A stretch of DNA of 51,301 nucleotides from a virus (IMGVR_UViG_3300007523_000017:1-51301); one strand, 5' to 3'; counted from the first letter of the stretch, positions 17,500-49,734 are shown. A program made the numbers and translations. Notes: generated by a model not told the origin, from the sequence alone.

Positions 17500-17535
17500 C
17501 CCCGGTTAAAGCTATTTATCAGCAGCGTTAACGGG
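17500..17535 (-). promoter_or_regulatory. Late promoter with SD-pairing arm
   Basis: GATAAATA on the - strand (17520 to 17513), 19 bases before the start at 17494. Upstream of it, CCCGTTAA (17535-17528) can pair with TTAAC and GGG around a bulged C (17509-17501); that GGG is the ribosome-binding site. Only RNA started upstream of the promoter would contain both arms. Confidence 0.55.
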
Positions 17536-17553
17536 TGTTATTATATTCGAACT

Positions 17554-18522
17554 TTATGTAGATACGAAGCCGAGATTTGTATATGTATATCCGCCGACGT
17601 ATGGAATAGCGCCTGATGACTGGATTCGATTAATTGTATATATTACCTTACCTGCTGGTTTAAGGACAGGGACAGTATCATTATCGAAAAGTGTTATTTT
17701 GAAATCAATTATTCCATTAGTTCCAGCTACATTTGCTAACCGTGCGTCAATCTGTGCATAATTTGTGGCGTAGTAATAGTAATACGAGCCACCGCCTCCG
17801 CCTGCAAATTTCCGATAAATGGGCTGATATAATGTTGTTAACCCGGGATACAACACAGGATTTGATGGATCCTGATAAAATCCTGGCTGATTTAGAATAA
17901 GATTCCATAATGGCTGAGTTGTTTTTTGCCAATTAAGCGTGACAGGAAAATGAACGTTAAACAAGGTCGCCCATGCATCTTCATCGGGCGTCGTTGGTGC
18001 AGAATATGTAGCAGTAATCGAGATTGCACTGCCAGTATTAAAATAATACCTTGCATTATTCCACGAACCAAAGTCTATCCGAAATGTATAGTCGAGCTGT
18101 GTTGACCATGAAGCTAAGTTGGCAAATGGTGCACCGAAAAGAACACTTCTCTGACTAACATCTACATTGAAACTGTTTGTCTTAAGTAATGCAATAAGAC
18201 TCGACATCGAACCTGCGGTTGTTACCGCATCAATATTGCTACCGATAATTGGGCCAGTAACCGGGATCGGTGGGCTAACCGATGTAGCTTGATGCGTCCC
18301 CGAAGATCTCATTGCAGTGAATAGTGAATTCCATTGTGCTGCGGTAACATTAGTTCCGACCGACACACCTGGTAGTGCGACTTGACCATAGCCAAGTCCA
18401 GCAGCTGGCAGAAGTGTTGCGCCCGAATGTGTATCGGCAAATAATTCATTCGTGCCCGTAACAGACGTAGCAAATGTATTATAATCTAACGCAGCTATTG
18501 GGCTGCCTGTAAGATATGTCAT
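17554..18522 (-). CDS. Tail-fibre-like virion protein
   Basis: 322 residues. M-T-Y-L-T-G-S-P-I-A-A-L-D-Y-N and N-V-T-A-A-Q-W-N-S-L-F are features I associate with a virion protein found beside baseplate genes in T4-like phages. Ser/Thr/Gly/Tyr-rich, with an F-A-G-G-G-G-G-S-Y-Y-Y-Y-Y turn near 240. Acts outside the cell as part of the particle. It could be a target of the downstream glycosyltransferases. Confidence 0.65.
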   Translation of the reverse strand: MTYLTGSPIAALDYNTFATSVTGTNELFADTHSGATLLPAAGLGYGQVALPGVSVGTNVTAAQWNSLFTAMRSSGTHQATSVSPPIPVTGPIIGSNIDAVTTAGSMSSLIALLKTNSFNVDVSQRSVLFGAPFANLASWSTQLDYTFRIDFGSWNNARYYFNTGSAISITATYSAPTTPDEDAWATLFNVHFPVTLNWQKTTQPLWNLILNQPGFYQDPSNPVLYPGLTTLYQPIYRKFAGGGGGSYYYYYATNYAQIDARLANVAGTNGIIDFKITLFDNDTVPVLKPAGKVIYTINRIQSSGAIPYVGGYTYTNLGFVST

Positions 18523-18538
18523 TTATGTTCCCCCAGTA

Positions 18539-19015
18539 TTATGAGTAAATTGCTGGGAATATTTGCTGCCAGGCTCCACTCGCCCGGATATTAATTGTCG
18601 GACCTGCTAAGACTTGTATGTCGCCATTTTTTGGAGTGCCACTTGGATTGACAATTGGAACTGTGCCTGTTTCAGTGGAACTGGTAGTTACAAGCCTTTG
18701 CCAGTTTGCGATTCCGCCGGATAGGTTTGAAGTAATTCTTACATTCAGATTTCCAGTTGTTGGTGATGTTTTCTCGAACCATAACTGACCTTGCAATGCA
18801 GTAGCATCACTTGGAAAGAGCGCGCCAGAGAAATTCTCAGTCAGTTGCAAAAGTGTTTGTGCTGTGGGAGCACCATAGTCGATAGCATTTCTGCCGTTAA
18901 GCTGAATTCCTATTGCTCTGCCTACGGCAGTGCCAGTTCCATTAAATTGCTGATCAATAGCGTTATCTGGTACAACGACAATAGTTCCGTCAGCCTTATA
19001 TATGTTATATGCCAT
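18539..19015 (-). CDS. Tail-fibre-type protein
   Basis: 158 residues. Y-N-I-Y-K-A-D-G-T then V-V-P-D-N-A-I-D-Q-Q-F-N and Q-L-N-G-R-N-A-I-D-Y-G (50-60) with A-L-Q-G-Q-L-W-F are characteristic of short tail-fibre-like proteins in large phages. Behind GATAAATA at 19038-19045 and AAGGA. Confidence 0.68.
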   Translation of the reverse strand: MAYNIYKADGTIVVVPDNAIDQQFNGTGTAVGRAIGIQLNGRNAIDYGAPTAQTLLQLTENFSGALFPSDATALQGQLWFEKTSPTTGNLNVRITSNLSGGIANWQRLVTTSSTETGTVPIVNPSGTPKNGDIQVLAGPTINIRASGAWQQIFPAIYS

Positions 19016-19037
19016 TATTAAAATTCCTTAGTTTCGT

Positions 19038-19045
19038 TATTTATC
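19038..19045 (-). promoter_or_regulatory. Late promoter motif
   Basis: GATAAATA on the - strand overlapping the stop of the upstream gene and 23 bases before ATG 19015. Predicted start near 19032. No strong anti-RBS arm is visible here, unlike six other sites. Confidence 0.6.
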
Positions 19046-19820
19046 AAGATACGCCCATTTGTATTCTGAGTGTATAAATTATCTCCAACGATCTGTTGGC
19101 AGACTTCTGAATAGGATGGAAAACCACATGGGTTAACATCAGTTTAGACTTAGAAACTGATGTATTTGAAAAATCTGGTGTCTGTGTTACAAACTCATTT
19201 ACTTCGGCAACAGTCGCTGTAAATTGTCCTGGGAACAGATTACCAGAACCAGCAAATAGACCAATTTCATTAAATACTAATTCGTTCGGGTCACAAGTAA
19301 TCGATGGTACAGATGCACTGTTTCCAATAAAAGTAGAATTGTCGAGTAATAATTGTTTGACGGTTGTTGATGCTCCAATGCCAACAGGGGGTTCATTGTA
19401 TCCTATGGTCACATCTACAATAATATCTTCGTAATTAACTGCATAATTTTCTGTAGGTATGTATGCTTTAGATAGCTGATTATAACTCGGGCCATCGGTC
19501 GAATCATTTGAAAGCTTCTTTACATAAATCGTATTATACAAATTAGCAGTCGGATTCTTAATTAAACTACCAGGACCACCTAATGATGGTTTATATGCAA
19601 CAGAACCTGTGGGACCCACATATGCACCGCCATTTCCGAATCCCATGTAGAACAGAAAACTATCTGCATTTCCGATAAGAGCATGTGCTAGTGCAGTCGA
19701 CATATTTCCGTACAATACACTATTATCTTTATCGGCTAATACCTCACCAGTTTCCTTATCTGTAATCTTTATTTTTCCAGTAATAATTACCGGGACATAG
19801 ATTAAATTATTATCGGACAT
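19044..19820 (-). CDS. Baseplate/tail structural protein
   Basis: 258 residues. I-K-I-T-D-K-E-T-G-E-V-L (17-28) leads a domain ending in L-T-H-V-V-F-H-P-I-Q-K-S (about 229-240) and I-Y-T-L-R-I-Q; with F-N-E-I-G-L-F-A this matches a conserved virion protein that follows the giant wedge gene in related phages. The start overlaps the homing endonuclease gene by 11 bases. A partial copy of its N-terminus lies at 20698-20838. Confidence 0.7.
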   Translation of the reverse strand: MSDNNLIYVPVIITGKIKITDKETGEVLADKDNSVLYGNMSTALAHALIGNADSFLFYMGFGNGGAYVGPTGSVAYKPSLGGPGSLIKNPTANLYNTIYVKKLSNDSTDGPSYNQLSKAYIPTENYAVNYEDIIVDVTIGYNEPPVGIGASTTVKQLLLDNSTFIGNSASVPSITCDPNELVFNEIGLFAGSGNLFPGQFTATVAEVNEFVTQTPDFSNTSVSKSKLMLTHVVFHPIQKSANRSLEIIYTLRIQMGVS

Positions 19821-20682: not shown

Positions 20683-20697
20683 CCTAATATCCTAATA

Positions 20698-20861: not shown

Positions 20862-23800
20862 TCAGGGAATCCCTGTGCCTTGTTCATCTTTCAAGAATTC
20901 AGATTCCTGTGTTAACGCATACCACAGACCACCTAATGGTGTCGATATAATATTAGAATACTCGTCGACTGTTATAATTGACAACGGATCTGGATTGGAA
21001 TTCAATGCATTCCATACATCCACATAGCTGCCGGCAGGCATATAGTTGAATTTCTCGACCCACACTGGGTTTGGCACTAATACCATCGGATCGGCCAAAC
21101 TTGGGATCATTGCTAGATGTTCAGTTGGTGCCGTGTCCATTGTCCCCCTGTATATTAATCTTAATTCCCATGTATTAGGTAATATTAATTGTTTGTTCCT
21201 GTATTCTATTCTCTCGCCATTAATCCAGATAACACCGGCTTCTACGCCCGGATTAGGAAGTATATCAGTGCTTAATGGATGTGTCACTGGATCTACATAA
21301 ACTGTAATCACATCAATATTATAGGTATCTGCTGTTGGCGCAGGTAAGTCAAATAGTAGTGTTCCGGAAAATACTTCGGCATTCCTGTAGAAACTAGATC
21401 CGTATAATACGCTAGTGTTGTCTCTGAAACTAATTGTGTAGTCGAGTAAAATAGGTACTAACGGTGTATCCCACGATACTTGATCGGTGCCACCTTCGGC
21501 AATAAGAGCAGCCGCTATTTCCGGCTGATTCATTCCATCCCATGTATCTCCCCATCCCACATATGGTGCAACAGTTGCAGGCGCCCACGGCGGACCAACT
21601 ATTAAGCTTACATCATTTGCAACTAACTTAGTATCAGCAATGACTACGAGGTCATCGATTCCGACTACATTAGCAGTTTCGTTTCTCGGAGCATATTTCG
21701 TGAATGATAATAACTGGCCGCCGTCAATCCACACAAATGCAACTGGATCTGGTGTCCCGGGGTCATTGTAGAAATAAACAGTATACGTCATGTCATCATT
21801 ATACTCGACATAGTAATCTTGTCCGTAATATAATATTCCGGCAGAAGTCTGTATTGCAATAATATTATTCGGTGTCACAAAGGTTTGTGGATTATCCAAA
21901 TTCACACTATTAAAGTCGAATGTATATGGGAATAATGCTGATAATCCAATCTTAGAAGAATCGAAGAATGTTAATGGAACTTGTATTGTCGACTCGTCGA
22001 ATCCTGGCCAATTGGATATACCTGGATTGTAGAATGGTAACACAGCATTTCGAGACACGAATTGATTTGGAATTTCTGCCATATTGACCGGAGCATCCCA
22101 TTCTGTATCCCACGCAAATGTATCCCATCCGCCCTGCGGAGTAATTATATTACCATCGACGCCAATTTCTTCTCCGGCAAAATCTGGGCCGAACTTTAAA
22201 GTAATTTGATGCTTATAGCTATCTGATGCTGTACCGATTGCAATGTCACTTGTAGTATGTGTACTTGTATAATCTCGAATCTGTGTATGGTATGGTTTAG
22301 AATCCTTGATGTAACTAATGACATCGTCGATATTATCAGGAGCATATATACTGCTCTGTACTAACGGAACATTATTTTCTTTTATGTATATGTATGACGA
22401 TTTAAATACCCAATCTGGGTTTTTCTGCTCGCTCATTACATAGTTAAGCATGGCAAAATATAACTCGTTTTGGTCAACTATATTTTCATCTACCATAACT
22501 TGTGTTCTAAATGCATTTAGCAATTCTCTCAATTCTGTGGATAGCCCATATTTGTTTACTGCTGTGTAAACAGTATCTAACAATTTAATTGCGCTATTCT
22601 GAATTGCAACTTGGTCTAAACTTAGAGCAGGTACATTTGGATTTACTTTAACTACTGCATATAAAACATATCTGCCATCTACGGTTCCGTTTGTTACTTG
22701 AACAATTTGCCCAACATATAATTCGCCAGATAACATTGCAGTATTAGCCAATGCAAGTGTAGAGTACACAACTGTTGGTACAACATTTTCATATCCTACT
22801 TTGTACCAGTTTGTATATTCCCAATAAACTGATGTTGACACATTTACATTCCAGCTAGGAGTATCATCCCTTACTGGAATATATTGTAATAATGCATTTG
22901 CAGCTTGGACGAATACTTTCCTGGCAGGAAGCAAATTAACAAACATTCCCTGACGTGGCCTATATTCGATGCCGTACTTCTGACCAAGTGCTAACATAGG
23001 GTCAGGCACAGGCAATATTACGCCGTATTCTGGCGAAGTAAGTGTGGTTGCATCATCCCATGGTGCAACGTCCCATCCGTATATGTCCCATGGCAGATAG
23101 TTAGCAACAATTATGCTATTTGTAAATTCGGCTGATGCAGACAATACCTTTGTGTATCCGCATAAGCTGTCAACCATCTTATTCCAGAACTGGGCAGTAA
23201 TAAGTGATGCAGGATCTCCTTCGCGGAACAGTGCCCACTGAGTATGCTCTTGATCGTCGCGTTCCGATATCCTGTATTCAATTTGTACATTGTCTCCTTT
23301 ATACGCAAGAATATCTTGTGCATTATAAAACATGTATGAATTGTTTGTTGCAGTTTGTTGGATAGGCGCAAAGAATACAAACCCCTGGCTCTTAGGACTT
23401 TGTAACAGTCTTGCTACATCAGTTGCAGCCATTGTCCTGTTTATAACATTTGGCTTATTAGTCGAACCTAATACCCAGAAGTAATAGTTAATCTCTGTTA
23501 TGTTAGTAAATCTGTTTGATACTGTTATTACAACATATGATTCAGTGCTGCGTGGCACGCCGCTGCCTGTATATTCGGCAGGAGGGACGGGACTACTAAC
23601 CCACTCATATATCTCTATAGCAGATCCCGGGAACAATTGTGCCCAATGATCTCTTCTATAAACTAAGTTATCTAATTCAGTTTCACTTCCGTCTAAAGCA
23701 ATAGGCTGTTCGTAATATGTATAGCGTGTGGTCGATGTATCCCACCACAGTTGTCCCACCTGCCTCTTACCGAAAGTTATATTCTCGTCATATAATCTTG

Positions 23801-26800
23801 TTTCATCCGTTACATTATATCTTGCCGGATCTAGGTAAGATATATAAGATATGTTTTGTTTAGCTGGGCCTGGCAAGATATATTTAAACGGATCGTAAAC
23901 AGGCATTTGCACAATTTCGTTTCTGCTTAATGTTTCGTAAACACTTACACTTTTGAATAATGATGTGCTAATCAATGGTTCTTGTACACGATATGGATTT
24001 AAGAATAGCGGGCCTGTTATATCCCAGCCTGCTTCAAATCCCCAGATATCAACTAATGATGAGTTTACCGGATCCCATACAGACATATCCCAGAAGCCCG
24101 GCACACCCTTTACCTTAAATACTGCCCACTTGTTGTCAGCATTGTCTACCCAGATAAAGTTTTCTATTCCTACATATAATGGCAAATTAGGTGCTACAGG
24201 AGGTGTTATAAACCTCATAGTCTTATAAAGCAACATTGTATTTAAATCTGCGTAATCTCCTACGTCAGCGGAAGTAATAGGCAATCCATCTAAGTCTGTT
24301 AATGAGTATGCATTGTAATCTACTAATGTGTCCGGGTCAGTATATATCCCTGGAGCATTATAATCTTCGGTGATATATGGAACAAACGCATATGTATGAT
24401 TGTTTTCTTGTGGTACTACACCTAATGTACTCTGCTGTAATACTATTAAGTTACCAAAATCGGTTCTCTTACCAGTAGTTGAATTCCATAGCTGAGGTAA
24501 AAATGTTACACCTAGATCGGCTAATAATAGCAAGTTACCTGTATCATCTTCCTGCACTCTCCATGTGTTTGCCAAATATGGTGCAGATACAGCATTTACT
24601 AATTTGTAAACATTCCAGTCTTCCGTAAAATTCTTAGCGACCCATATAGTATCCGATTCTGTCGGATTAAAAGCATCAGATCCCCAATTAGCATATGTTT
24701 GTGTCGCATTAAAGGATGTATATGTTACGTCATTGAAATTAACATATCCTGCATTTGGCATAGGATAATCTATATTATTTGTGACAGGGAACTCTAAGGA
24801 TACGGTCGGGTCTGTAGGTCTTACAAGCCATATGTCTTCCTGGTCAATATCAATATTAACGATATTATCTAAAGTTTCATCTTTAACAATCTGGCCTTGC
24901 CACACTGCGTACAGTTTATCTAATTCATGTGGCTCAGTGGAATCAATAGTGATGTTCGGTGCTGTCAGATAACCGTAGCCTGGGTCGACCATATCGACTC
25001 TGGAAATTCTGCCAGTCGAGTCTAACACTATGTAAGCCTTTGCGATACGTGTCTCTAATAATATGTCCCATAATACAGGATTAAATATGCCAGCTGGTGC
25101 AGATTGGCCTGCATTGCTTGTGTAATATACTGGATATCCAAATGAATTATCATATCTTACCACGCTACCGATTGAGTAACCAGATAGAGAATCGTAATCT
25201 GACCATGCTACATCAGGTGTAGCATCTGGTAATGGTATAGAAACGCCAGGTACAGTTGTATATCTGTTCTGGGCATTTAATACTCTGATCTGTCTTATTA
25301 TACCAATGTCAGATGGCACGAAGTTTAGCCTTGCTACTATAACTTCACCTGTGTTCTGTTCTGGTATTAATCTGAATTCAATCGAAACTTGCTCGACGGT
25401 ATTGCCGAAGTCGCCTAGTTTAAGTGCCCATTCCTCGAACACTTCTATTGCATCCGAACTTTGCACTTTGGTTGACCTAAACAATTTATCAAATGCTTGC
25501 ACAGTGCCTTTCTGTCTAATAGCACCTTGATAGAACAGATATTGAACATCATTGGAAATTTGAAGATTATCTAAGTAACTCTTGCTTTCGTAACCTATCA
25601 AATGACGACCGAGGTCTTCTAAACTCGGATTATCGATGGTTACATCCGGGTCGTAGTAATAGCGCATTGCTTCGACGATAGTATCATAGTTTGGCACAAG
25701 CTGGTCATCAATGATTAGATACCCAGGTGCTTCCATTTTGCCATACCAGCCGTTGCTTCTGAATCCGTAGAATCTTAATCTCTGCTGTCTTGCCCTTAAC
25801 AACGGAGAATATATTGTATCATTAAATGATGTGACGTTATCGAATATCAAAACGTGTTCTGTCTCAGATACATTGATTTGTAAGAAATATATTCCACCAC
25901 TTGACAGATTTAGTGGCGATACGCTAATAAGCTGATCTTCTCGGTCTGTTGTTGTATTATTTGGTGCAATGGCAATTCCCGATTTGTCAAGAATGCTATA
26001 GACTCCATTAGATAAAGTTTCTACATCGTCCGGATAACCCCTGTCTACAACTAACGTAGCTTTATTAGCAAGTGGGCTTAACTGAATAGCTGCATCGGGC
26101 GCCCATGCTGTGTTTAACCAGAACAGATATTGTTTAGAAGATGATAACCAGTCTTCTAAGATATTAGTATCCTGATTGACTTCGTCGAACTTCCAGCCCT
26201 GCGATTCCAAGTATGCGCCCCAGCCGATAAGCATATCGAATACATCTTGAGGAGTTTTAAGAATAGTTCCATACGGAACCCTTGTTATTGTTTCCTTAGA
26301 CTGTGGCTTGTATGAGACAGAAATGCCGCCAGTTGTTGGCAATCCTGGTAGTTTTGTCCATCCGGATGCTACGAATTTCTGTACCACTTGTGTAACATTA
26401 CTTAAGAAGTAGACGCCATTGTATCGAACGATGTCACCGGGGTTATATGTTGCACCTGGTTCGAAATATCGAAACTCAGCAGGTGTTCCGCCGATTGTTA
26501 CATCTATTAGTTTGTTAACAGACCTGTCCAAAATAAGGAATTCTGAATTCAAAACGTCATAGCCGTAGACAACGAATGTTCCGTCTGTAAGTGAGCGAAT
26601 GATAACACCACTGTATGAATATGTTTTTACAGGTGGGCTCTTATGCAACATAACTTCGAAATTCGTAGAAGGTAATATTAATGAGCTATTAGTAGCGCAA
26701 GGTGTGATTGCTTCTATATAAGTATTTGTCGTGTCTTTATTTGTAAATCCGGCTAACTTATTAGCAAGATTTACATCTAATGTCCTAATTTTTTGACCAA

Positions 26801-29800
26801 AGACTGTGCTTACTGTCTTGTTCAAGAATAAAATTCTATCACTGATCCATGTCTGGTATCCGAAGCGAACAGCTATGACACCATCGATATTCTCGGCGTG
26901 AACAATCTGATCCTTGTTCTTCGGACGGAACCATTCAGAGAATTCATCATCGGAAGAGAAGGTATAATTCTGGACATACTGCCAGTTTGTATTAGACTTT
27001 ACGGGGCCCGCAATTCCCGGAATTGTTAGCTGGCCTGGAGAAAGTTCTGTGCCTAGTGTGTCCCACATCTGTTCGCCGTACGGCCCAGGTTTCATCAAGT
27101 ACATAAATTCCTGTAAGCTGAACTTATATCCGGAAGTAGATATCCACGCCTGCTCCACAGGCGCACCGTCACCGTATACCCAGTCATCATCGAAATGATC
27201 AAATGGCTCGTAATAATTTCCGGAGAATACTACATTAAACAATACCATTACCGAAATTACTTCGCCCGCTGAATCAACCGGAATAATTAGTGATAGTCCA
27301 GGCCTTGCCCACGTTATTTGCGGTTGTACAATTAGTGTAATGGGGTCGAAAATAGCAGATGGGCCCTGGCGTATTAGGCCTAATTCCAAGTCTGCCCACA
27401 TATTATTATTCCCAGATGCAGTTGCAGTCCAGACCTCTTGCCCGGCTATGTTTATTACTGGTGTACCGTATTCGAATCTCCACCACGAAGGTTCCTCGCC
27501 AAACCCTAGCATTTCCCATGGCCGAGTATCTGGATTATATGTGTCGTAGTAATAATCGAATATACCTTTCCAGTTACCAGGCAGATCACTTTGCACGCCA
27601 GGCGGTGTAATGCCAGGCTCGTAGAAATACATCGAAATATCGTCGCCTGACGATAATGGAATATTGAATGTTATCTGATTTGTCCCGGTAACTGTATACG
27701 ATAGTGCGGCGCCATCTAATTGTAATATACCATTAACAAACACAAGCCCGTATAATGTAGTAGTATCGATGACGGTGTTTACGATAGTTTGGGCTGCTAT
27801 TGCAAGTTGCGATTCGTAGAAAGGAGTTACCGAACTAGTAAACGATACCAACACAATGTCGTCGCTTAAAACTAACGGCACATTGAAGGTGATTTGCGTC
27901 GGGCCTGTGATAGTGTACGCCAGCGTAGCACCTTCCGATTGCATTACCCCGTTAATAAACGCTAAGTCGGGCAAATTGGCAGAATTAACTAAAGTCTGTC
28001 CGGCAGTTGCAACTTGTGTTTCGTAGCTCGGCACTGTATCTGCATCAAAGGAATACACTGCAATGTTATCGCTTAATAACAGCGGAGTATTAAATGTTAT
28101 CTGGTTTGCACCAGTAACAATAAACTCGAGCGCAGCGCCTTCCATTTGCATAACGCCATTGTTGAATATCAGCAGGTATGTTTGCCCTGCGCTTGTCGGC
28201 GAAGTCGATACTGTTGTATTGATAACTGTTTGGCCGGCAGCGGACAATATTAATTCGTAAGCAGGCGTGTACGATGTACTCGGCGATAATGTTATTGCAT
28301 CTCTATAATTATATAATTTCCAAATATTTCCAACACCTGGAACAAAACTTGGCACGACACTTGCATCGACACTTGCATCAGGCCAATTATTGGTTCGGTA
28401 ATTTGCACGATTCTTTGTAGACCACTTATTTAAGTATGATTGGGTTATGTCTAAATATTCGGCTCTGGTATAACGAGTTTTCCTGTAATACCCCGTCTTT
28501 ACATCTTCTACTCTTACCGGGGCACTGTATTCATATCTATATCTAGACTGTAGCGAATTGTAAATTCTTTTTTCTAATTCTAATAATAATATATCTCTGT
28601 AGTCACCGTACGCAATTGTCTTAGATCCGTCGTGTCCGATGATAACATTTGTTGGTGTAACAAAAGTTGTGTCGAGTTCGATCCTCGGAACATATGTTTG
28701 GTACGCACCCACTTTAGTCGGTGTAGACGGAATATATGTAGGCAGCGGCTCTTGGTATAATGCAATATACAAATCAACAGGTGCTACACCTAAATTCAAC
28801 TGAACATCGATCGAAAGATTAGTAGATGTTATTGTGTAATCGATGCCGTCCAATAATAACTCTTCCGAATTCGGATTAGTTACATTGTAAATGTACATTA
28901 CATTCTTAGGATTATCTAGATCCACATAGTTAGTTAAGGTAACTAATCCGTTTCCTGGACCCGAATATAGCTCGCTTGCAAACGGTGTACCACTTGCTGC
29001 CATATACGAATATGCAAAAGCATTCGAGAATTCCTTAGATACATTAAGAATCTTAAGAATTTCCCCGACCCAATATGATATAATAACACTATTATTAAAT
29101 ACTGCAACGGGCGAAAACTGTTGATTTATTAACTGGAGTGCAGTTGTCAAATATTTGTTTTTAAACTTAGTATATTCGTCGGAACTGAATCGTACACCTT
29201 TGATAAAATCTAAATCATCTTCAGAAGAAACTAGCATTGACTTCAATGCAGGTGAGACATTCTGTAATATGTATTGGCCCAGTGATCTATTTTTTCTGGA
29301 ATCTCTGTAATTATTCTTCCCGCCGAATGATGTTCCCTCGAATCCAATTTGATTCTGTATGATGGATGAAAACTGTTCCACAAGATTGCTGGCACTGATT
29401 TCACCGACCTCTAACTGAGTAGGGTTAGCCTCTAACTGTTGTGGTATCTCCGAATAACCCGTTGCTGCTGGATCTAATAATCCATGAGTATATGTCTGTA
29501 TTTCTACGACAGGAGCAACTGCTTGCGGTGTTAATAGCAGGTTAGTCAAATATGCTGATAAGTTTACATATACATATCCGTTTATAACAGATAATGTGTA
29601 TCCATTTACTTGATCTACGGAATTCTTTACTTCCGATGCATTAACCGATACAATAATATCAGGAGCTGTCGGGTAGCCGTACGGCTCAACGCTTACTCTG
29701 AATTGATATTCAGTGCCATAACCTACTGTATATTTGTCTATAACTCTTTGCTTACTAACATTAACGCAATTGACAGGTGGTGTCGGAATAATGTCGTCAC

Positions 29801-31499
29801 AATCACAAATATCATACATATTCCAGTTGTTATATAAAACAGGACTCGTAGATGTTTTGTAATAGTAATATCCGTTTATAGGCAATCTCTGTTCGGAATA
29901 TGTGTAACGATCAACTATTAAATTGTTTTGGAATATAATATCGGATGCCTGACCAAGTGATGTATAAACAATCGGAAATCCTAATACAGGATCATTGGTT
30001 GCGCCCGGTGTAGTATTTTCTTTATACGAAAATATCTTACTCCCGAAGAATGTGCTATCTGGATATGTCGAACTATCGTCCAACGGAATACCGTTGTGAT
30101 CATACAACTGGAACAGTGGAGCTTGATTAACTGAAACTTTATCATTGAATGCTTGGGACCACATGCCGCCCGAATAATACCATGTAGATCCCCTCTGAGC
30201 GCCATCGTATGGAGCATCCTCTGTAGCAAAGACAATATCGCCCTCTAATACAGGGGTGAGGAAAGATGTATATGGTACTAAATTAATTTCTCCGGTGCCC
30301 AAAACCTGCACCTCAAATATAAAGTTGTTAAATGTGCCGATACCTGCATCCCATGCATCCATAGGCGAGTCCCATAATGCAGCGTCCCAAAAATCAAATA
30401 CGCCAGTGTCGTTAAAGAAAACTATAAAGTCACCGGCTGCCATTCCGATAGAATATGTTGAGTTTACATCATTAAGTTGTTCACCTTGAATATCTGTAAA
30501 CTCTATGGGGTTACCGAATTGATTATTATTAAATCCGAATGTTATTTCGTTTCTAAATTGTGTTCCAGATTTATAAAGATCCAGGTTGGCTACAAATTGT
30601 ATAATTGAACGCAATGCTCTTGTAGCATTCGGCGGAAATGCTCCACCGGTTATATTTACTGATTGATTAATAGCATCGATGTGGAACCATTTATTTGTTC
30701 TTGACCATGCATTTCTGTCTGCCGCACCGCGCTCAATGGTGATATAATCTCCATGGCCGCGTACTGCCTGAATATCCCAGGTCGTACCGTCCCACAGAAT
30801 ATTTTGTATTATTTCTCCAGTGGACAACTCTAGCATGCCATCCCATGGTAAAAATTGGAATATTGTGCCAACAGTAAAGCCCGGAAATATAGGCACCAAC
30901 TGGATGCCATCGCAACCTCCCATATTTTCCACAACCACAGGTTCTGGATACAGCGGATCATCGAGTAACAAAATTGTCATGCCAGTGCTTAGTGTGAATT
31001 CAGATGGATCTGCCAAGCCTGGTGTAGTGTATGATGCTTTGCCGATTATATCTACACCCATTACTCCAGATATAGAAATTGTAGGTAATCCTTGCTCTAC
31101 CCAATAGTAGTTTTCGTAATTAGTAAACATATCATAGTCGATAGGTGGTCCGAAGCTATAATATTTAGACTCAAACAGGCGGTCCTGGTTTAATGTATTC
31201 CCGCCATAATATTCTATACGCTCTAATAAATCGTCGTAGAAGAATATGTTTGTTTTTGTAGAATCGGCTGTGCGAGCATATGCCGTGGCTTCTAGCTGCC
31301 ACCATGTTCTGTTCTTTGATGGTTCTGGAAGATAAAAATCGGTTATTGGATTATAGTCACCGGGATTTCTACGCCCAATGTAACCGGATAACAGGTCGCT
31401 ATCCTTTTTAGAGAATACCTGATCGAAGGTTGCATCAAAAAACTTCTTTTCAGTTACTGTTTGAAATACGGCCGGCAGTCGTTTAATATAAGATGTCAT
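20862..31499 (-). CDS. Giant baseplate wedge protein (gp7 position)
   Basis: 3545 residues, the largest gene here. The N-terminal region (K-K-F-F-D-A-T-F-D-Q-V-F-S, G-Y-I-G-R-R-N-P-G-D-Y and N-R-T-W-W-Q-L-E-A-T-A-Y) is a beginning I recognise from large baseplate proteins of T4-like phages. Placement directly after gp6 suggests the gp7 role, linking wedge parts; T4 gp7 is about 1,030 residues. No catalytic motif or membrane segment seen. Trp/Tyr/Asp-rich with many W-D-x-x-x-W-D turns. Residues about 1081-1293 hold three tandem beta repeats. ATG 31499 follows TTGGAA and a hairpin. Confidence 0.72.
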   Translation of the reverse strand: MTSYIKRLPAVFQTVTEKKFFDATFDQVFSKKDSDLLSGYIGRRNPGDYNPITDFYLPEPSKNRTWWQLEATAYARTADSTKTNIFFYDDLLERIEYYGGNTLNQDRLFESKYYSFGPPIDYDMFTNYENYYWVEQGLPTISISGVMGVDIIGKASYTTPGLADPSEFTLSTGMTILLLDDPLYPEPVVVENMGGCDGIQLVPIFPGFTVGTIFQFLPWDGMLELSTGEIIQNILWDGTTWDIQAVRGHGDYITIERGAADRNAWSRTNKWFHIDAINQSVNITGGAFPPNATRALRSIIQFVANLDLYKSGTQFRNEITFGFNNNQFGNPIEFTDIQGEQLNDVNSTYSIGMAAGDFIVFFNDTGVFDFWDAALWDSPMDAWDAGIGTFNNFIFEVQVLGTGEINLVPYTSFLTPVLEGDIVFATEDAPYDGAQRGSTWYYSGGMWSQAFNDKVSVNQAPLFQLYDHNGIPLDDSSTYPDSTFFGSKIFSYKENTTPGATNDPVLGFPIVYTSLGQASDIIFQNNLIVDRYTYSEQRLPINGYYYYKTSTSPVLYNNWNMYDICDCDDIIPTPPVNCVNVSKQRVIDKYTVGYGTEYQFRVSVEPYGYPTAPDIIVSVNASEVKNSVDQVNGYTLSVINGYVYVNLSAYLTNLLLTPQAVAPVVEIQTYTHGLLDPAATGYSEIPQQLEANPTQLEVGEISASNLVEQFSSIIQNQIGFEGTSFGGKNNYRDSRKNRSLGQYILQNVSPALKSMLVSSEDDLDFIKGVRFSSDEYTKFKNKYLTTALQLINQQFSPVAVFNNSVIISYWVGEILKILNVSKEFSNAFAYSYMAASGTPFASELYSGPGNGLVTLTNYVDLDNPKNVMYIYNVTNPNSEELLLDGIDYTITSTNLSIDVQLNLGVAPVDLYIALYQEPLPTYIPSTPTKVGAYQTYVPRIELDTTFVTPTNVIIGHDGSKTIAYGDYRDILLLELEKRIYNSLQSRYRYEYSAPVRVEDVKTGYYRKTRYTRAEYLDITQSYLNKWSTKNRANYRTNNWPDASVDASVVPSFVPGVGNIWKLYNYRDAITLSPSTSYTPAYELILSAAGQTVINTTVSTSPTSAGQTYLLIFNNGVMQMEGAALEFIVTGANQITFNTPLLLSDNIAVYSFDADTVPSYETQVATAGQTLVNSANLPDLAFINGVMQSEGATLAYTITGPTQITFNVPLVLSDDIVLVSFTSSVTPFYESQLAIAAQTIVNTVIDTTTLYGLVFVNGILQLDGAALSYTVTGTNQITFNIPLSSGDDISMYFYEPGITPPGVQSDLPGNWKGIFDYYYDTYNPDTRPWEMLGFGEEPSWWRFEYGTPVINIAGQEVWTATASGNNNMWADLELGLIRQGPSAIFDPITLIVQPQITWARPGLSLIIPVDSAGEVISVMVLFNVVFSGNYYEPFDHFDDDWVYGDGAPVEQAWISTSGYKFSLQEFMYLMKPGPYGEQMWDTLGTELSPGQLTIPGIAGPVKSNTNWQYVQNYTFSSDDEFSEWFRPKNKDQIVHAENIDGVIAVRFGYQTWISDRILFLNKTVSTVFGQKIRTLDVNLANKLAGFTNKDTTNTYIEAITPCATNSSLILPSTNFEVMLHKSPPVKTYSYSGVIIRSLTDGTFVVYGYDVLNSEFLILDRSVNKLIDVTIGGTPAEFRYFEPGATYNPGDIVRYNGVYFLSNVTQVVQKFVASGWTKLPGLPTTGGISVSYKPQSKETITRVPYGTILKTPQDVFDMLIGWGAYLESQGWKFDEVNQDTNILEDWLSSSKQYLFWLNTAWAPDAAIQLSPLANKATLVVDRGYPDDVETLSNGVYSILDKSGIAIAPNNTTTDREDQLISVSPLNLSSGGIYFLQINVSETEHVLIFDNVTSFNDTIYSPLLRARQQRLRFYGFRSNGWYGKMEAPGYLIIDDQLVPNYDTIVEAMRYYYDPDVTIDNPSLEDLGRHLIGYESKSYLDNLQISNDVQYLFYQGAIRQKGTVQAFDKLFRSTKVQSSDAIEVFEEWALKLGDFGNTVEQVSIEFRLIPEQNTGEVIVARLNFVPSDIGIIRQIRVLNAQNRYTTVPGVSIPLPDATPDVAWSDYDSLSGYSIGSVVRYDNSFGYPVYYTSNAGQSAPAGIFNPVLWDILLETRIAKAYIVLDSTGRISRVDMVDPGYGYLTAPNITIDSTEPHELDKLYAVWQGQIVKDETLDNIVNIDIDQEDIWLVRPTDPTVSLEFPVTNNIDYPMPNAGYVNFNDVTYTSFNATQTYANWGSDAFNPTESDTIWVAKNFTEDWNVYKLVNAVSAPYLANTWRVQEDDTGNLLLLADLGVTFLPQLWNSTTGKRTDFGNLIVLQQSTLGVVPQENNHTYAFVPYITEDYNAPGIYTDPDTLVDYNAYSLTDLDGLPITSADVGDYADLNTMLLYKTMRFITPPVAPNLPLYVGIENFIWVDNADNKWAVFKVKGVPGFWDMSVWDPVNSSLVDIWGFEAGWDITGPLFLNPYRVQEPLISTSLFKSVSVYETLSRNEIVQMPVYDPFKYILPGPAKQNISYISYLDPARYNVTDETRLYDENITFGKRQVGQLWWDTSTTRYTYYEQPIALDGSETELDNLVYRRDHWAQLFPGSAIEIYEWVSSPVPPAEYTGSGVPRSTESYVVITVSNRFTNITEINYYFWVLGSTNKPNVINRTMAATDVARLLQSPKSQGFVFFAPIQQTATNNSYMFYNAQDILAYKGDNVQIEYRISERDDQEHTQWALFREGDPASLITAQFWNKMVDSLCGYTKVLSASAEFTNSIIVANYLPWDIYGWDVAPWDDATTLTSPEYGVILPVPDPMLALGQKYGIEYRPRQGMFVNLLPARKVFVQAANALLQYIPVRDDTPSWNVNVSTSVYWEYTNWYKVGYENVVPTVVYSTLALANTAMLSGELYVGQIVQVTNGTVDGRYVLYAVVKVNPNVPALSLDQVAIQNSAIKLLDTVYTAVNKYGLSTELRELLNAFRTQVMVDENIVDQNELYFAMLNYVMSEQKNPDWVFKSSYIYIKENNVPLVQSSIYAPDNIDDVISYIKDSKPYHTQIRDYTSTHTTSDIAIGTASDSYKHQITLKFGPDFAGEEIGVDGNIITPQGGWDTFAWDTEWDAPVNMAEIPNQFVSRNAVLPFYNPGISNWPGFDESTIQVPLTFFDSSKIGLSALFPYTFDFNSVNLDNPQTFVTPNNIIAIQTSAGILYYGQDYYVEYNDDMTYTVYFYNDPGTPDPVAFVWIDGGQLLSFTKYAPRNETANVVGIDDLVVIADTKLVANDVSLIVGPPWAPATVAPYVGWGDTWDGMNQPEIAAALIAEGGTDQVSWDTPLVPILLDYTISFRDNTSVLYGSSFYRNAEVFSGTLLFDLPAPTADTYNIDVITVYVDPVTHPLSTDILPNPGVEAGVIWINGERIEYRNKQLILPNTWELRLIYRGTMDTAPTEHLAMIPSLADPMVLVPNPVWVEKFNYMPAGSYVDVWNALNSNPDPLSIITVDEYSNIISTPLGGLWYALTQESEFLKDEQGTGIP
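27620..28260 (-). repeat. Three tandem ~70-residue repeats in the giant protein
   Basis: Each unit has Y-E-x-x-x-x-x-A-x-Q-T-x-x-N, then F-x-N-G-V/I-x-Q-x-x-G-A-x-L, T-G-x-x-Q-I-T-F-N and L-S-D-D/N-I. Units begin near 28258, 28026 and 27823. Probably beta-sandwich domains from internal duplication, comparable to repeated fibre or adhesin modules. Confidence 0.75.
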
Positions 31500-31510
31500 T
31501 TATGTTCCAA

Positions 31511-31545
31511 AAATAGTAGGCATTACCTCTAACCTACTATTTATC
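31511..31545 (-). promoter_or_regulatory. Late promoter fused to a 10-bp hairpin
   Basis: On the - strand GATAAATA (31545 to 31538) overlaps the first arm of a perfect hairpin, AAATAGTAGG (31542-31533) with CCTACTATTT (31520-31511). A start six bases after the motif (about 31532) falls just past the first arm, so late RNA lacks the hairpin. Read-through RNA from gp6 would fold it right against TTGGAA of the giant gene. Confidence 0.6.
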
Positions 31546-36262: not shown

Positions 36263-36682
36263 CTAAAATTTTTCCTTATCTTTCAAGCTGAACGACACAA
36301 ATAGATTATCTGTTACAGATTCTGGTTTAAACAGTAAAGTCATTACGACATTTAGAGCCTGATCTTCCTGGAATACATCTACGCTTACTAACTGGACACG
36401 TGGTTCCGATTGTACTACTCTCACAGCATCATCTGTAATAGCATTCTTTGTAAATTCATCAAATGGGTCGAATAATAACTCATATATCCGTGTGCCAAAT
36501 TCCGGGAGCATTAATCTCGATCCTATCGGGGTTGCGAAGTGATTATTTAGGTCTCGTTTTACTATATCAATATTAGTAAGTGAGTAGGGCGGCGAAGATT
36601 GATTCACCGTGTTAAAACCCACAAAATAAGGCTTTCTTGTTATGCGACGTTGTTGTACTAAACCTGTTTGATTTGATGCCAT
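36263..36682 (-). CDS. gp25: Baseplate wedge protein gp25
   Basis: 139 residues (T4 gp25: 132). D-I-V-K-R-D-L-N-N-H-F then G-S-R-L-M-L-P-E-F-G-T-R-I and L-L-F-D-P-F-D are the gp25/GPW family core, including the E-P-R motif (S-E-P-R-V near 98). Forms the wedge core with gp6 and gp53. Preceded by GATAAATA at 36702-36709. Confidence 0.92.
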   Translation of the reverse strand: MASNQTGLVQQRRITRKPYFVGFNTVNQSSPPYSLTNIDIVKRDLNNHFATPIGSRLMLPEFGTRIYELLFDPFDEFTKNAITDDAVRVVQSEPRVQLVSVDVFQEDQALNVVMTLLFKPESVTDNLFVSFSLKDKEKF

Positions 36683-36684
36683 GG

Positions 36685-36721
36685 TATAATTCTCTTTTTG
36701 TTATTTATCAAAAGAATTATA
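36685..36721 (-). promoter_or_regulatory. Late promoter enclosed by an inverted repeat
   Basis: GATAAATA (36709 to 36702, - strand). TATAATTC (36721-36714) and GAATTATA (36692-36685) are perfect 8-bp arms, extended by four A-T pairs after a two-base bulge. The 3' arm covers the AAGAGAA ribosome-binding region of gp25; the 5' arm lies upstream of the promoter, so late RNA lacks it. Confidence 0.55.
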
Positions 36722-43494: not shown

Positions 43495-43523
43495 TCTCCT
43501 ATCTTGCTTATTTATCTTGGAGA
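43495..43523 (-). promoter_or_regulatory. Late promoter with anti-SD arm
   Basis: GATAAATA (43516 to 43509, - strand). TCTCC (43523-43519) just upstream can pair with GGAGA (43499-43495), the ribosome-binding site of the gene starting at 43489. Late transcripts (start near 43503) would lack TCTCC. Confidence 0.6.
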
Positions 43524-43548: not shown

Positions 43549-43577
43549 TTGACTTTCTGTCGAATGCCTGCTATAAT
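43549..43577 (+). promoter_or_regulatory. sigma70-type promoter of the gp55 gene
   Basis: TTGACT (43549-43554), 17 bases, TATAAT (43572-43577). It is divergent from the late promoter 33 bases away, so one intergenic region carries the early promoter for the late sigma factor and a late promoter that the factor should read. Confidence 0.82.
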
Positions 43578-43606
43578 AGTGAAAACCTTAATTGGAGAAA
43601 AGTTTA

Positions 43607-45541
43607 ATGAACGAAAATATGAATGACGAAGTAGATGATGAAACAGAAGACACAGAGGCACCGAAAGTAGTGTCGTTGTTTCCTGTTAAGAAAATAAACT
43701 ATCTTAACAATAAGGACATGCTGAAACAAATTCACCTAAGCAAAACATCCTTTTCCGAATATATCGACGACAAGTACACTGATTATGATGTAATCATCGA
43801 ATCAGTTGCAGAAATCTTTGATGTAGATGTGCAGGAAAAAGGTAAGATTGCTAAAGCAGCAAGGATTGCTGCGAGAGGGTACGAACATGCAATGGCTAAC
43901 ACTGTAATGCTGACGAAAGCAGACAAACCTAAGTTATCGGAATTTAAGATTAAACCAGACACTCTTTCAGTAGACGATTTAGTTTTTAGGGTTCTTACAT
44001 TTGACCATATTCCGTTGGCTCCGGGTAGGAAGAAGAATCCAAAGAGTGTTGCAGACAGCCACATTAAATTAAACTTCCACCCCTTCAAGCATTACATTAT
44101 TGTAGACAATGAAGCCGTAGAGGTTGGCAAATCCCATACGAAAAATGGTAAATTTAGTTTGGAACACGGCTCAATTACGAAAACATTGGCAAAGATGTTT
44201 ATCTTAATGGTTAATAAATATGCTCAGCGCGGTAACTGGCGTGGGTATTGTGTAGATGCAGAAACAGAGGCGTTAACTAAAAGAGGTTGGCTAGGGATAG
44301 ATGATATCGACGAAAATGATATAATTTTGTCATACAACGGAAATAATTTAGCATGGTCTTCTGTGAAATCTCTGTATCGCGGCGACTATAGTGGAAAAAT
44401 GCATAAATTGACTCAGCAAGGTATGGATTCTCTGATTACACCATATCATAAAATTGTAACAGAAAATGGGTTAGTTCCTGTTGAATTATTAAAGCGGTCG
44501 GATAAAATTTTAATGCTTGCTGATGCAGTTAATGATAAATTAGAAATTTATAACGACGATATAGTAGAATTAATGGCCTGGGTTATAACAGAAGGATGCT
44601 ATCAATTCGACAAAGAAGGAAAACTTAGATCCATAGGAATTTATCAAAATGAAGGTCTGGGCGCTGATCGTATACGAAATTGTATTATTTCGTTAAATTA
44701 CAAATATAGTGAAAAAATACATAAAGGTAATAACATAGTATTTAACATCAGTAGAACAAATTCTAAAGAGTTATTTGCAATTATACCAAATAAAAATGAA
44801 TTCACGGATGTTATTATGAATTTATCTGAACGTCAGCGACATATTTTCCTCAATACACTTATAGACGGTGACGGCTGGAGAACTGGCGATAATAAACAAC
44901 ATTTGAGATATACACAAAAAAATAAAACACACATCGATAATGTCCAGGCATTATGTGCAATGTTAGGATTAAGAAGTCATTCCCATTTCATAGATAATAA
45001 ATTGTCATTTGGTAAATTGACTAATTATTATACACTAAATATTTTTTCTAAAAAGAAAAATAAAACAAATGCATCTTGTATAAATTTCAATGGCGGATTT
45101 AATAATGGCAGAGATGGGTTAACTCAGCTCGGAAATGGTAAATTAAGTCACCAAAATATCCCCACCGAAGATTACAATGGCCGAGTTTGGTGTCCAGAGA
45201 CAGAATATGGATGTTTTGTTGCAAGGAGAAATGACACAGTCTATTTAACCGGAAACACATATTTAGACGAAATGAAGGGCCAAGCATTGTTGCAATTAGC
45301 ACAGATGGGCCTGCAGTTTGACGAATACAAATCGGATAATCCATTCTCATATTACACTCAATCGTTACAAAACAGTTTCACTCGTGTACTAAACTTAGAA
45401 AAGAAAAATCAAGACTTGCGAGATGACTTGTTAATCGATAGCGGCGCAAGTCCTAGCTTCTCGAGACAACTTGCTATTGAGGGTGAAATTAGACACCTAA
45501 GAGAAGAAGCTCAAGAGGCAGCTAAAAATGAATCTATTTAA
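43607..45541 (+). CDS. gp55: Late sigma factor gp55 interrupted by an intein
   Basis: 644-residue precursor; start ATG 43607, nine bases after GGAG (the frame is open from TTG 43592). The exteins (residues 1-214 and 551-644, 308 in all) match gp55: K-K-I-N-Y-L-N-N-K-D-M-L near 30-41, then N-W-R-G-Y / T-Y-L-D-E-M-K-G-Q-A-L-L across the splice point and N-P-F-S-Y-Y-T-Q-S-L-Q-N-S-F-T-R-V-L after it. gp55 directs host RNA polymerase to late promoters together with the sliding clamp. Excision of residues 215-550 is needed for a continuous protein. Followed by gp47 with a 14-base overlap. Confidence 0.85.
   Translation: MNENMNDEVDDETEDTEAPKVVSLFPVKKINYLNNKDMLKQIHLSKTSFSEYIDDKYTDYDVIIESVAEIFDVDVQEKGKIAKAARIAARGYEHAMANTVMLTKADKPKLSEFKIKPDTLSVDDLVFRVLTFDHIPLAPGRKKNPKSVADSHIKLNFHPFKHYIIVDNEAVEVGKSHTKNGKFSLEHGSITKTLAKMFILMVNKYAQRGNWRGYCVDAETEALTKRGWLGIDDIDENDIILSYNGNNLAWSSVKSLYRGDYSGKMHKLTQQGMDSLITPYHKIVTENGLVPVELLKRSDKILMLADAVNDKLEIYNDDIVELMAWVITEGCYQFDKEGKLRSIGIYQNEGLGADRIRNCIISLNYKYSEKIHKGNNIVFNISRTNSKELFAIIPNKNEFTDVIMNLSERQRHIFLNTLIDGDGWRTGDNKQHLRYTQKNKTHIDNVQALCAMLGLRSHSHFIDNKLSFGKLTNYYTLNIFSKKKNKTNASCINFNGGFNNGRDGLTQLGNGKLSHQNIPTEDYNGRVWCPETEYGCFVARRNDTVYLTGNTYLDEMKGQALLQLAQMGLQFDEYKSDNPFSYYTQSLQNSFTRVLNLEKKNQDLRDDLLIDSGASPSFSRQLAIEGEIRHLREEAQEAAKNESI
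44249..45256 (+). mobile_element. Intein with LAGLIDADG endonuclease
   Basis: 336 codons, residues 215-550. Block A begins C215-V-D-A-E-T-E-A-L; block B has T278-P-Y-H281; block F is Y-G-C-F-V-A-R-R-N-D-T-V-Y; the end is T-G-N550 with Thr as the first C-extein residue. The usual penultimate His is Gly. Endonuclease blocks L-M-A-W-V-I-T-E-G-C (about 322-331) and L-I-D-G-D-G-W (418-424) look complete, so homing is plausible. It interrupts the most conserved part of gp55. Confidence 0.88.
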
Positions 45542-48314: not shown

Positions 48315-48319
48315 TGCTC

Positions 48320-48360
48320 TTGTTTTTCGGTTGATGCTTCAGATACAATAGAACATCAAC
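48320..48360 (+). promoter_or_regulatory. Possible promoter with inverted repeat
   Basis: TTGTTT (48320-48325), 18 bases, TACAAT (48344-48349). GTTGATG (48330-48336) and CATCAAC (48354-48360) flank the -10 box as an inverted repeat, and TTGATGCT occurs twice (48311, 48331). Weak match to consensus. Confidence 0.4.
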
Positions 48361-48382
48361 AAACACAAAGGATTAAAGTAAT

Positions 48383-48925
48383 ATGCTAAATTTTCAGAAT
48401 AATGTAATCATGCCTAAGAAGCAGTTATGGGGGTTAAATATTTCTATATATGCTCCGGATGGGTTTAAAAAAATATGCAGAATTAAAAATACATCAAGCA
48501 TATATAAATGGACATATGAAGATATAAATGAATCAATGATGTATGACACACACAGAAGTTGGGTTTACATAATAACAGTCGATGATGTAGTATTTAAAAT
48601 AGGCGAAACTGCAAATCCATTAGGTATAAGAAGATCTATAGAATATACACAACCAATACCGGGATCCAGGAGTAGGTTGGGTAGATACACAACTGGTGAT
48701 GGAACTGATTCCAATATCAGGGATCAAGCAGACGAATATTTATTGGCAAGACACAATATTTCTATATATGCTAAAAAATGTGACATTGTACAAGCTTCTG
48801 CAATGATTGGCGGATTTGCTCAAGACACAGTAGGTTCTACACAGAAGGACCAAGAAATGCAATACTTGGATCATTTTGCTTGCATGATGGGTGCTATACC
48901 GTTATGGAACAAGTCACGCAAGTAG
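48383..48925 (+). CDS. GIY-YIG-like nuclease domain protein
   Basis: 180 residues. W-V-Y-I-I-T-V-D-D-V-V-F-K-I-G-E-T (about 60-76) is a GIY-YIG-type start; R-S-R-L-G-R-Y-T-T-G (about 95-104) with D-Q-A-D-E follows. Compact, without the DNA-binding repeats of the homing enzymes, so it may be a phage nuclease rather than a mobile element. AAAGG precedes ATG 48383. Confidence 0.62.
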   Translation: MLNFQNNVIMPKKQLWGLNISIYAPDGFKKICRIKNTSSIYKWTYEDINESMMYDTHRSWVYIITVDDVVFKIGETANPLGIRRSIEYTQPIPGSRSRLGRYTTGDGTDSNIRDQADEYLLARHNISIYAKKCDIVQASAMIGGFAQDTVGSTQKDQEMQYLDHFACMMGAIPLWNKSRK

Positions 48926-49167
48926 TCGAATATTTCTTAACTAACTCAATGTTAACATCTTTAGACCAAAAGTCATCCCAGCTTGTAAATACCCAACCTT
49001 TATACACAAGTGATCGGTTGACAATAAAGGTCAATTCTGCAGGATAGACAACCCATTTATCCTTCCTACCTTAATAAGAATCAAGTTCAAATCTCCTTCA
49101 TCTTCGACGTCCTTCTGCTGTTGGATCCAAGCGTCGAGGATTTTCACATCTTGTGTCCACGCAATCT
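48894..49167 (-). pseudogene. Fragment of a nuclease-like gene with a frameshift
   Basis: Reading leftward from 49167, one frame gives K-I-A-W-T-Q-D-V-K-I-L-D-A-W-I-Q-Q-Q then L-I-L-I-K-V-G and stops soon after. From about 49066 another frame continues D-K-W-V-V-Y-P-A-E-L-T-F, V-Y-K-G-W-V-F-T-S-W-D-D-F-W, to a stop at 48894. The two together resemble the C-terminal half of a phage PD-(D/E)XK or resolvase-like protein. No start codon is left. Either true decay or a one-base sequence error. Confidence 0.55.
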
Positions 49168-49665
49168 TTAAAAGAACACTGGTATATCCAGCGTTAACAC
49201 ATCAGCAAGCTTATACACATACGTTCCTTTATACTCAAAACACAACCTTATTGCTGGCAGCGTGTCTTTAGTAATTACAAATTCAGCTACGTTATTATAT
49301 TTAACAATTAACATCATTTTCTTTAGTGATTTAATGCTATCTTGTTCTGCTTGTGATATCCATAAATCCCATTCTTTTACGTCATTATTTAATACAGCAT
49401 TAAATGTAGGGGATGACTTATAATGTTTGCATTCTATTGAGAATTGGAATGTTTTCGGGCATATTAGATCACCGAAAATAGCAAAATCAGAATCATATAT
49501 TTCGGTCCTTGTATGATTTGTGCCGCCGAAAAAACTGCCACTATCCGGATTTCGTCTAAATCCCTTTTCTATGCCTAAGTGTGCCTTAAATCTGTCAGAC
49601 AACAAATTTGCTATTTTTCGTTCAAAGGTGTTACCTTTAGATTTTCCATTTACTTTAGTTACCAT
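49168..49665 (-). CDS. PD-(D/E)XK nuclease, resolvase-like
   Basis: 165 residues. G-N-T-F-E15-R, G-D66-L-I-C-P and S-I-E78-C-K80 supply the nuclease core. F-R-R-N-P-D-S-G-S-F-F-G-G near 36-48 is typical of phage Holliday-junction-type proteins of this group. Probably trims or resolves branched DNA during recombination and packaging. It reads away from the palindrome at 49691-49721. A fragment of a similar gene lies just downstream. Confidence 0.72.
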   Translation of the reverse strand: MVTKVNGKSKGNTFERKIANLLSDRFKAHLGIEKGFRRNPDSGSFFGGTNHTRTEIYDSDFAIFGDLICPKTFQFSIECKHYKSSPTFNAVLNNDVKEWDLWISQAEQDSIKSLKKMMLIVKYNNVAEFVITKDTLPAIRLCFEYKGTYVYKLADVLTLDIPVFF

Positions 49666-49679
49666 ATTTTTCTATAATA

Positions 49680-49734
49680 CCTTTTATGTCGTATTTATCA
49701 AGCCGTCGGCTTGATAAATACGTAAAACGAAAGG
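49680..49734 (+). promoter_or_regulatory. Divergent late promoters in a perfect palindrome
   Basis: GTATTTATCAAGCC (49691-49704), GTC, then GGCTTGATAAATAC (49708-49721): perfect 14-bp arms. Each arm contains GATAAATA, one reading left toward 49665 (49698 to 49691) and one right toward the endolysin (49713-49720). CCTTT (49680-49684) can also pair with AAAGG (49730-49734), the endolysin ribosome-binding site, from upstream of its late start. Confidence 0.62.

Follow-up and report, generated by a model that had tools for sequence, protein, structure and literature searches.

The 51.3-kb viral record IMGVR_UViG_3300007523_000017 (analyzed over its whole length and hereafter called the window), a fragment of a T4-like jumbo phage, contains late promoters at which sequence upstream of the predicted RNA start can pair with the Shine–Dalgarno (SD) region of the gene downstream. 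Our analysis of these promoters and of their counterparts in related phages makes it probable that, at a subset of them, this pairing forms a ribosome-binding site (RBS) trap, which silences RNA reading through from upstream and spares late RNA. What was computed is the pairing, its compensatory evolution in four gene families, its absence in two others, and its tendency to occur where a co-directional gene lies upstream. In the mechanism that we propose, DNA just upstream of a late promoter, or overlapping it, would encode an arm that complements the gene's ribosome-binding region. RNA running in from upstream would hold both arms and fold so as to hide the SD, and often the AUG, while RNA begun at the gene's own GATAAATA promoter would lack the 5′ arm and be translatable. 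Such a device would make the translation of a gene dependent on its own late promoter and would silence read-through RNA regardless of when that RNA is made.

Arms flanking the late promoter covary in four gene families

The late box, GATAAATA, is 3–4 times commoner than its reversed control in three near-complete relatives of 360–385 kb, G001 (77 vs. 25), G002 (64 vs. 15), and G003 (88 vs. 27). Since it matches the late box of T4, the first base of which lies at −13 (PMC2988020), we placed the putative transcription start (+1) six bases past the box, an analogy that is assumed throughout; the expression times that we assign would likewise follow those of T4. Pairing was measured as an interaction energy, that is, the gain in free energy when the segment upstream of +1 is joined to the leader. 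For the family tests, we gathered orthologous leaders for six genes from scans of viral contigs, removed leaders >85% identical, and took 36 nt, the box, and 5 nt as the upstream segment; a few leaders without a consensus box in the 3545-aa, 119-aa, and endolysin sets were positioned by a looser TAAATA match. Native pairs were compared with shuffled arms and with arms swapped between orthologs (5,000 permutations, with a floor of P = 0.0002), the latter being a test that ignores phylogeny and that close relatives could inflate. Within the window alone, interaction energies were compared with 100 shuffles of the upstream segment in which the promoter box was retained, and SD accessibility with 200 shuffles, sites 36709 and 31545 being left out of the second test because their SDs are too weak for the detector. 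The window tests cover eight sites and two measures without correction, and the interaction energy was adopted after the SD accessibility result had been seen; their per-site P values are exploratory, and our conclusions rest on the family tests instead.

A first-pass annotation of the window had listed five arms, all of which are present in the sequence, and had noted that they differ from site to site. In four families, the arms covary in relatives. At the corresponding sites (36709, 31545, 17520, and 49713), the late promoter lies between the arms, which are upstream of the box or overlap it when the start is positioned as in T4.

The gp25-like baseplate wedge gene (139 aa, 36263–36682, minus strand; PF04965 and PHROG) is preceded by a late box at 36702–36709. 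The 5′ arm, TATAATTCTTTT (36721–36710), is not part of the late RNA and pairs, with a bulge, with AAGAGAATTATA (36696–36685), which contains the gp25 SD. The interaction energy in the window (z = −4.1, P = 0.01) is echoed by the family of 24 distinct leaders, where z reaches −17 against shuffled arms and native arms beat swapped ones (P = 0.0002). In this family, the SD region is unpaired at a level of 0.12 in read-through RNA vs. 0.82 in late RNA, and the best helix overlaps the SD in 22 of the 24 leaders. The 14-bp helix passes through the AUG, displays changes on both sides at 6 of its 14 pairs, and has a covariation score of 0.210 vs. 0.169 for shuffled versions (none of 500 reach it) and at most 0.134 for slid versions. 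Moreover, with shuffled arms as the reference, pairing is stronger on the sense than on the antisense strand (P = 0.007), and in the alignment GU exceeds AC beyond column shuffles (2/2,000), both as predicted for RNA pairing; the GU–AC comparison is informative on this alignment and uninformative in the best ungapped helices. SD opening as a function of the 5′ end was scanned in the only four gp25 leaders that passed the length filter. A TATAAT within the gp25 arm was considered as a sigma-70 element and rejected by inspection, many relatives carrying TTTAAT or GTTAAT.

The second family is that of a 3545-aa gene (20862–31499, minus strand), which has a virion structural relative in phage PA5oct and is preceded by a late box at 31538–31545 and a weak SD, TGGAA (31505–31509). 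Here, a 10-bp inner stem is formed by AAATAGTAGG (31542–31533), which overlaps the box, and CCTACTATTT (31511–31520), while an outer helix absent from the first-pass annotation is formed by TTCCA (31551–31547), just upstream of the promoter, and the SD itself (31509–31505). The outer helix recurs in relatives. The interaction energy is significant in the window (z = −3.2, P = 0.02) and in the family (n = 22; z = −13 vs. shuffled arms, native arms better than swapped ones with P = 0.0002); the SD region is unpaired at 0.28 in read-through RNA vs. 0.63 in late RNA, with the best helix overlapping the SD in 11 of 22 leaders. In relatives L105, L117, L019, L118, L115, L119, and L252, the gene is found without a late promoter and its ATG lies 3–13 nt past the upstream stop. 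Where measurable, the SD of these promoter-less versions is more open (0.47 vs. 0.24, P = 0.012).

The 119-aa gene, an open reading frame (ORF) at 17135–17494 on the minus strand, has its late box at 17513–17520. Its 5′ arm, CCCGTTAA (17535–17528), pairs along TTAA(C)CGGGG with a 3′ arm that includes the SD, TTAACCGGGG (17500–17509); the window interaction energy is significant (z = −3.4, P = 0.01), and SD accessibility gives P = 0.14. Family support (n = 10) is again at the floor of the swap test (P = 0.0002), with z = −9 vs. shuffled arms, an SD region unpaired at 0.23 in read-through RNA vs. 0.64 in late RNA, and a best helix that overlaps the SD in 8 of 10 leaders. The CCCGTTAA/TTAACCGGGG pair of the window is replaced by CCTCCGTT/AACGGAGG in four relatives and by CCCCCGTT/AACGGGGG in another, both arms having changed together. 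In this family and in that of the 3545-aa gene, any 5′ end between the inside of the box and +1 leaves the SD open.

The fourth gene, on the plus strand, encodes an endolysin (193 aa, 49743–50324, with Glyco_hydro_108 and PG_binding_3 domains) and has a late box at 49713–49720 and the SD AAAGGAG (49730–49736). The arm CCTTTT (49680–49685), which pairs with AAAGG of this SD, sits behind a perfect palindrome with 15-bp arms (49690–49722) that is made of two divergent late promoters. On its own, the site is not significant (interaction energy P = 0.46, SD accessibility P = 0.08). The family (n = 34), on the other hand, gives z = −11 vs. shuffled arms and P = 0.0002 in the swap test; the SD region is unpaired at 0.26 in read-through RNA vs. 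0.60 in late RNA, opens only if the start lies downstream of the box, and is overlapped by the best helix in 27 of 34 leaders. In many endolysin leaders, the arms are unrelated in sequence, some lying upstream of the box and some overlapping it, as illustrated by L157 (ATACTCCT/AGGAGTAT), L185 (GTTCTCTCC/GGAGAGAAC), and L192 (a 14-bp stem). As for the palindrome, its loop is 3 nt long and it lies between the endolysin gene and a PDDEXK nuclease gene; several relatives retain inverted boxes at the endolysin promoter with changed flanks.

Other late promoters of the window

At 43516, a TCTCC arm (43523–43519, minus strand) pairs with GGAGA, with an interaction energy that is not significant (P = 0.21) and P = 0.03 for SD accessibility. 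The arm is absent from relatives of the 225-aa gene at this site (n = 16; z = 0.4, P = 0.41), in which the SD region is unpaired at 0.53 in read-through RNA vs. 0.65 in late RNA. The box at 19038–19045 (minus strand) had been singled out by the first-pass annotation as the exception without an arm, correctly so, since its interaction energy is not significant, its SD accessibility gives P = 0.95, and the family of its 158-aa gene is null (n = 11; z = 1.2, P = 0.20). That these two families give no signal argues against an artefact of the method. The interaction energy at 49699 is not significant either. A candidate CTCCC/GGGAG hairpin (6915–6929, plus strand), outside the five sites listed earlier, lies between a late box at 6907–6914, which the upstream stop overlaps, and an 89-aa gene. 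It is borderline (z = −1.9, P = 0.05; SD accessibility P = 0.07), and no relatives of the 89-aa gene were found. Sigma-70-like matches at 43549 and 7169 are possible sources of early or middle RNA that would read into the endolysin and the gene at 6907, such matches being no commoner than in shuffles.

Judged by interaction energy in the window-only shuffles, the listed arms pair beyond chance at 36709, 17520, and 31545 and not at 43516 or 49713; SD accessibility orders the scored sites differently. Covariation is found in the families of 36709, 31545, 17520, and 49713 and is missing from those of 43516 and 19045. When the outcome named in advance as fatal, pairing no better than shuffled and arms that do not covary, was looked for, the gp25, 3545-aa, 119-aa, and endolysin families showed the opposite.

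Frequency of the putative traps and gene context

In the three near-complete relatives, the interaction energy reaches P = 0.05 in 13 of 46 promoter–gene units (G001), 9 of 46 (G002), and 5 of 55 (G003). Strong pairings (−8 kcal/mol or lower) exceed those of within-genome swapped arms by approximately 13/46, 10/46, and 3/55, a count that also takes in local hairpins lying off the SD. From these counts, we judge that ∼10–30% of the late promoters in these genomes carry such a structure. SD accessibility alone, a blunt genome-wide statistic, falls only slightly below its null (z = −1.6, −2.0, and −1.1, respectively). When the interaction energy test was run on T4, gene e ranked first and I-TevII second.

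Nominally significant structures occur at 30 of the 120 promoters that lie near the end of a co-directional gene vs. 1 of the 28 that do not (Fisher P = 0.007), counts that are not fully independent since the window is included and orthologs are shared between genomes; without the window, the figures are 26/115 vs. 1/25 (P = 0.022). This split by presence or absence of a co-directional gene was made after a split by gap or overlap with the upstream gene had shown no effect (P = 0.70). A simple rule is suggested, in which a trap is found almost only where a co-directional gene can supply read-through RNA to the late gene.

What the proposed traps may silence

That early read-through RNA is silenced, as the first-pass annotation had it, is borne out in part. 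In four gene families, read-through RNA hides the SD and late RNA frees it, but early RNA cannot be the sole target, the genes upstream of 36709, 31545, and 17520 being of virion type. With such genes upstream of the minus-strand sites, the most likely role of the device is to block the translation of read-through RNA whatever its age. At gp25, moreover, no terminator-like site was found in the minus-strand interval from promoter 43516 to the gene, so the RNA silenced there may well be late. Read-through from upstream virion genes would thus be the target at gp25, the 3545-aa gene, and the 119-aa gene, while early or middle read-through would be the target at the endolysin, which sits downstream of gp55-gp47-gp46, and perhaps at 6907. 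Read-through RNA is presumed to exist in the window phage, where hiding of the SD would lower its translation.

In phage CBB, a terminator-like hairpin stands ahead of the promoter at two genes, as it does at some late genes of T4. Such a hairpin could equally stop upstream transcription feeding a late gene, although, unlike an RBS trap, it would presumably act on transcription and not on translation. We read these hairpins, the co-directional association, the open SD of the promoter-less relatives, and the gp25 leaders without an obvious arm where the adjacent upstream gene is on the opposite strand (see below) as signs that a gene is insulated from read-through RNA. We tentatively suggest, as a single proposal that may be right but that we stop short of calling probable, that late promoter and SD trap form a cassette gained and lost as a unit between late-operon genes, each gene being translated only from its own message, which would be insulation within the late phase and not a timing switch. 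At the 3545-aa gene, the cassette would be present where the promoter is and absent where it is not; at the endolysin, it would have been built anew from unrelated arms; and a terminator may serve the same end in other phages.

Several observations weigh against an RBS trap. The upstream stop of gp25 is only 8–11 nt from the arm, which a terminating ribosome might disturb, and significant RNA-strand specificity is seen in gp25 alone, the other three families being not significant. The known T4 cases soc, 49, and I-TevI reach only P = 0.09–0.16 in the single-site test, which makes single-site calls weak in both directions and means that the promoter counts in relatives may be underestimates. 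Finally, CCTTTT at the endolysin is the complement of AAAAGG of the opposite gene, so this arm could simply reflect the divergent layout, in which two genes with SDs have inverted promoters, without any selected regulation. For this one site, we regard that as a real possibility, if not the probable one; the T4 divergent pairs 53/4 and 26/51 behave likewise and the window P value is 0.46, yet in many endolysin relatives the gene upstream is co-directional instead and strong, unrelated arms are present all the same, and the swap test for the family is at its floor.

An improbable alternative is translational coupling, in which the hairpin would not silence the gene but make it need the ribosomes that finish the upstream gene to open its SD. 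Both gp25 and the 3545-aa gene do have upstream stops near the arm (mostly 19–33 nt before the box), and the one at 6907 overlaps the box. However, in the supported families the upstream coding region does not extend into the arms, and the promoter-less relatives, which depend on upstream ribosomes, begin almost at the upstream stop and have an SD that is more open. A role other than in translation, for example as a weak terminator, an element for RNA processing or stability, or a DNA-level palindrome at the promoter, is very unlikely: while some stems are near-palindromic, the 49713 palindrome holds both promoters, and the strand test misses significance in three families, most gp25, 119-aa-gene, and endolysin leaders have their 3′ arm on the SD or AUG, most stems are without a T-run, and gp25 tolerates GU on the sense strand. 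Least credible of all is the genome-wide early/late switch of the first-pass annotation, with an arm at every late promoter silencing early read-through, since even if most window promoters show some pairing and native arms beat within-genome swapped arms in G001 and G002 (z = −12 and −6), only a minority of units in the three relatives reach P = 0.05, SD accessibility alone stays at z −1.1 to −2.0, the 43516 and 19045 families are null, and three sites have virion-type genes upstream.

Relation to known phage systems

The proposed RBS trap is of the kind known from T4 e and I-TevI, although the lineage is new and the setting partly so; the first-pass view of a regulatory layer not usually described as general has to yield to the established cases of T4 e, soc, 49, and I-TevI (PMC3014915). 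In gene e, which encodes lysozyme, translation is controlled by a hairpin on long transcripts (McPheeters et al. 1986, reviewed in PMC3014915). As in the window phage, the late promoter of e lies between the arms, the SD is hidden in long RNA and free in late RNA, and the product is an endolysin, also among the targets here. The window phage differs in that it belongs to another lineage, its arms are unrelated, and three of its four supported sites follow virion-type genes and not early ones. No such structure was seen at e in Aeh1, 44RR, 25, 31, or FelixO1 (PMC3014915). Late promoters combined with an RBS-sequestering fold on polycistronic RNA are also shared with T4 I-TevI, I-TevII, I-TevIII, and segB and with Aeh1 mobE (PMC2988022), where the targets are homing endonucleases, in contrast to the baseplate, virion, and lysis genes of the window phage.

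The late T4 genes soc, 49, 25, and 26 have an RBS reported to be hidden by RNA structure (PMC3014915, PMC2988022), and PMC2988022, which lists genes 25 and 26, raises the possibility that this mechanism coordinates the translation of polycistronic messages in general. In the window, gp25 is the best-supported case. However, the window gp25 fold spans a late promoter, whereas no late box was found within 150 nt upstream of T4 gene 25, which also has a split RBS whose helix aids initiation (PMC3014915). Among closer kin, no comparable trap was seen, by inspection, in the gp25 and 3545-aa-gene leaders of PA5oct, Phosso, Atu_ph07, SCTP-2, and CBB; in PA5oct, Phosso, and Atu_ph07, where the adjacent gene upstream of gp25 is on the opposite strand, gp25 has no obvious arm, again by inspection only. 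A search of the open literature found no description of the trap in this jumbo-phage clade, of convergent endolysin arms, of joint presence and absence with the promoter, or of use between virion genes, a silence that is weak evidence.

With this strong comparative evidence, the classical T4 device is extended to uncultivated jumbo phages. From it follows a prediction of the late genes whose translation relies on their own promoter alone, along with a warning that, for the endolysin and baseplate genes of these phages, the amount of transcript could be a misleading guide to the amount of protein.

Phage affiliation and additional features

A 521-aa structural protein of the window matches PA5oct, Atu_ph07, CBB, GAP32, and 121Q-type jumbo phages. 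PA5oct shares its gene order with the window, namely the 3545-aa gene, gp6-like, gp25, baseplate genes, gp55 sigma, gp47, and gp46. The ORF at 43592–45541 (plus strand) is a gp55-like late sigma gene with a probable intein. Its ∼330-aa insert displays intein features, with CVDAETEALTKRG near residue 220 and VYLTGN followed by T near 555, and weak LAGLIDADG_3 and intein-splicing matches below curated cut-offs; the sigma gene of PA5oct is 843 bp. If the insert is an intein, late transcription would hinge on protein splicing.

An Rfam search of the window gave no match. At 8941–8969 (plus strand), a perfect sigma-70 promoter match (TTGACA-17-TATAAT with TG) stands amid small plus-strand ORFs. Elsewhere in relatives, a 280-aa gene (L146, 13083; L148, 13021; L149, 6241; L181, 12846, all minus strand; and others) is preceded by GATAAATA and, ∼30 nt on, by TATTTATC, an inverted late box; its swap test is not significant (n = 7). 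In leaders like GATAAATAgtgtatcattGGAGtgatacacgATG (L201, 3863; L222, 1226; L247, 842; L202, 11376, all minus strand), a hairpin starts right past the promoter box, with the SD in or adjoining its loop.

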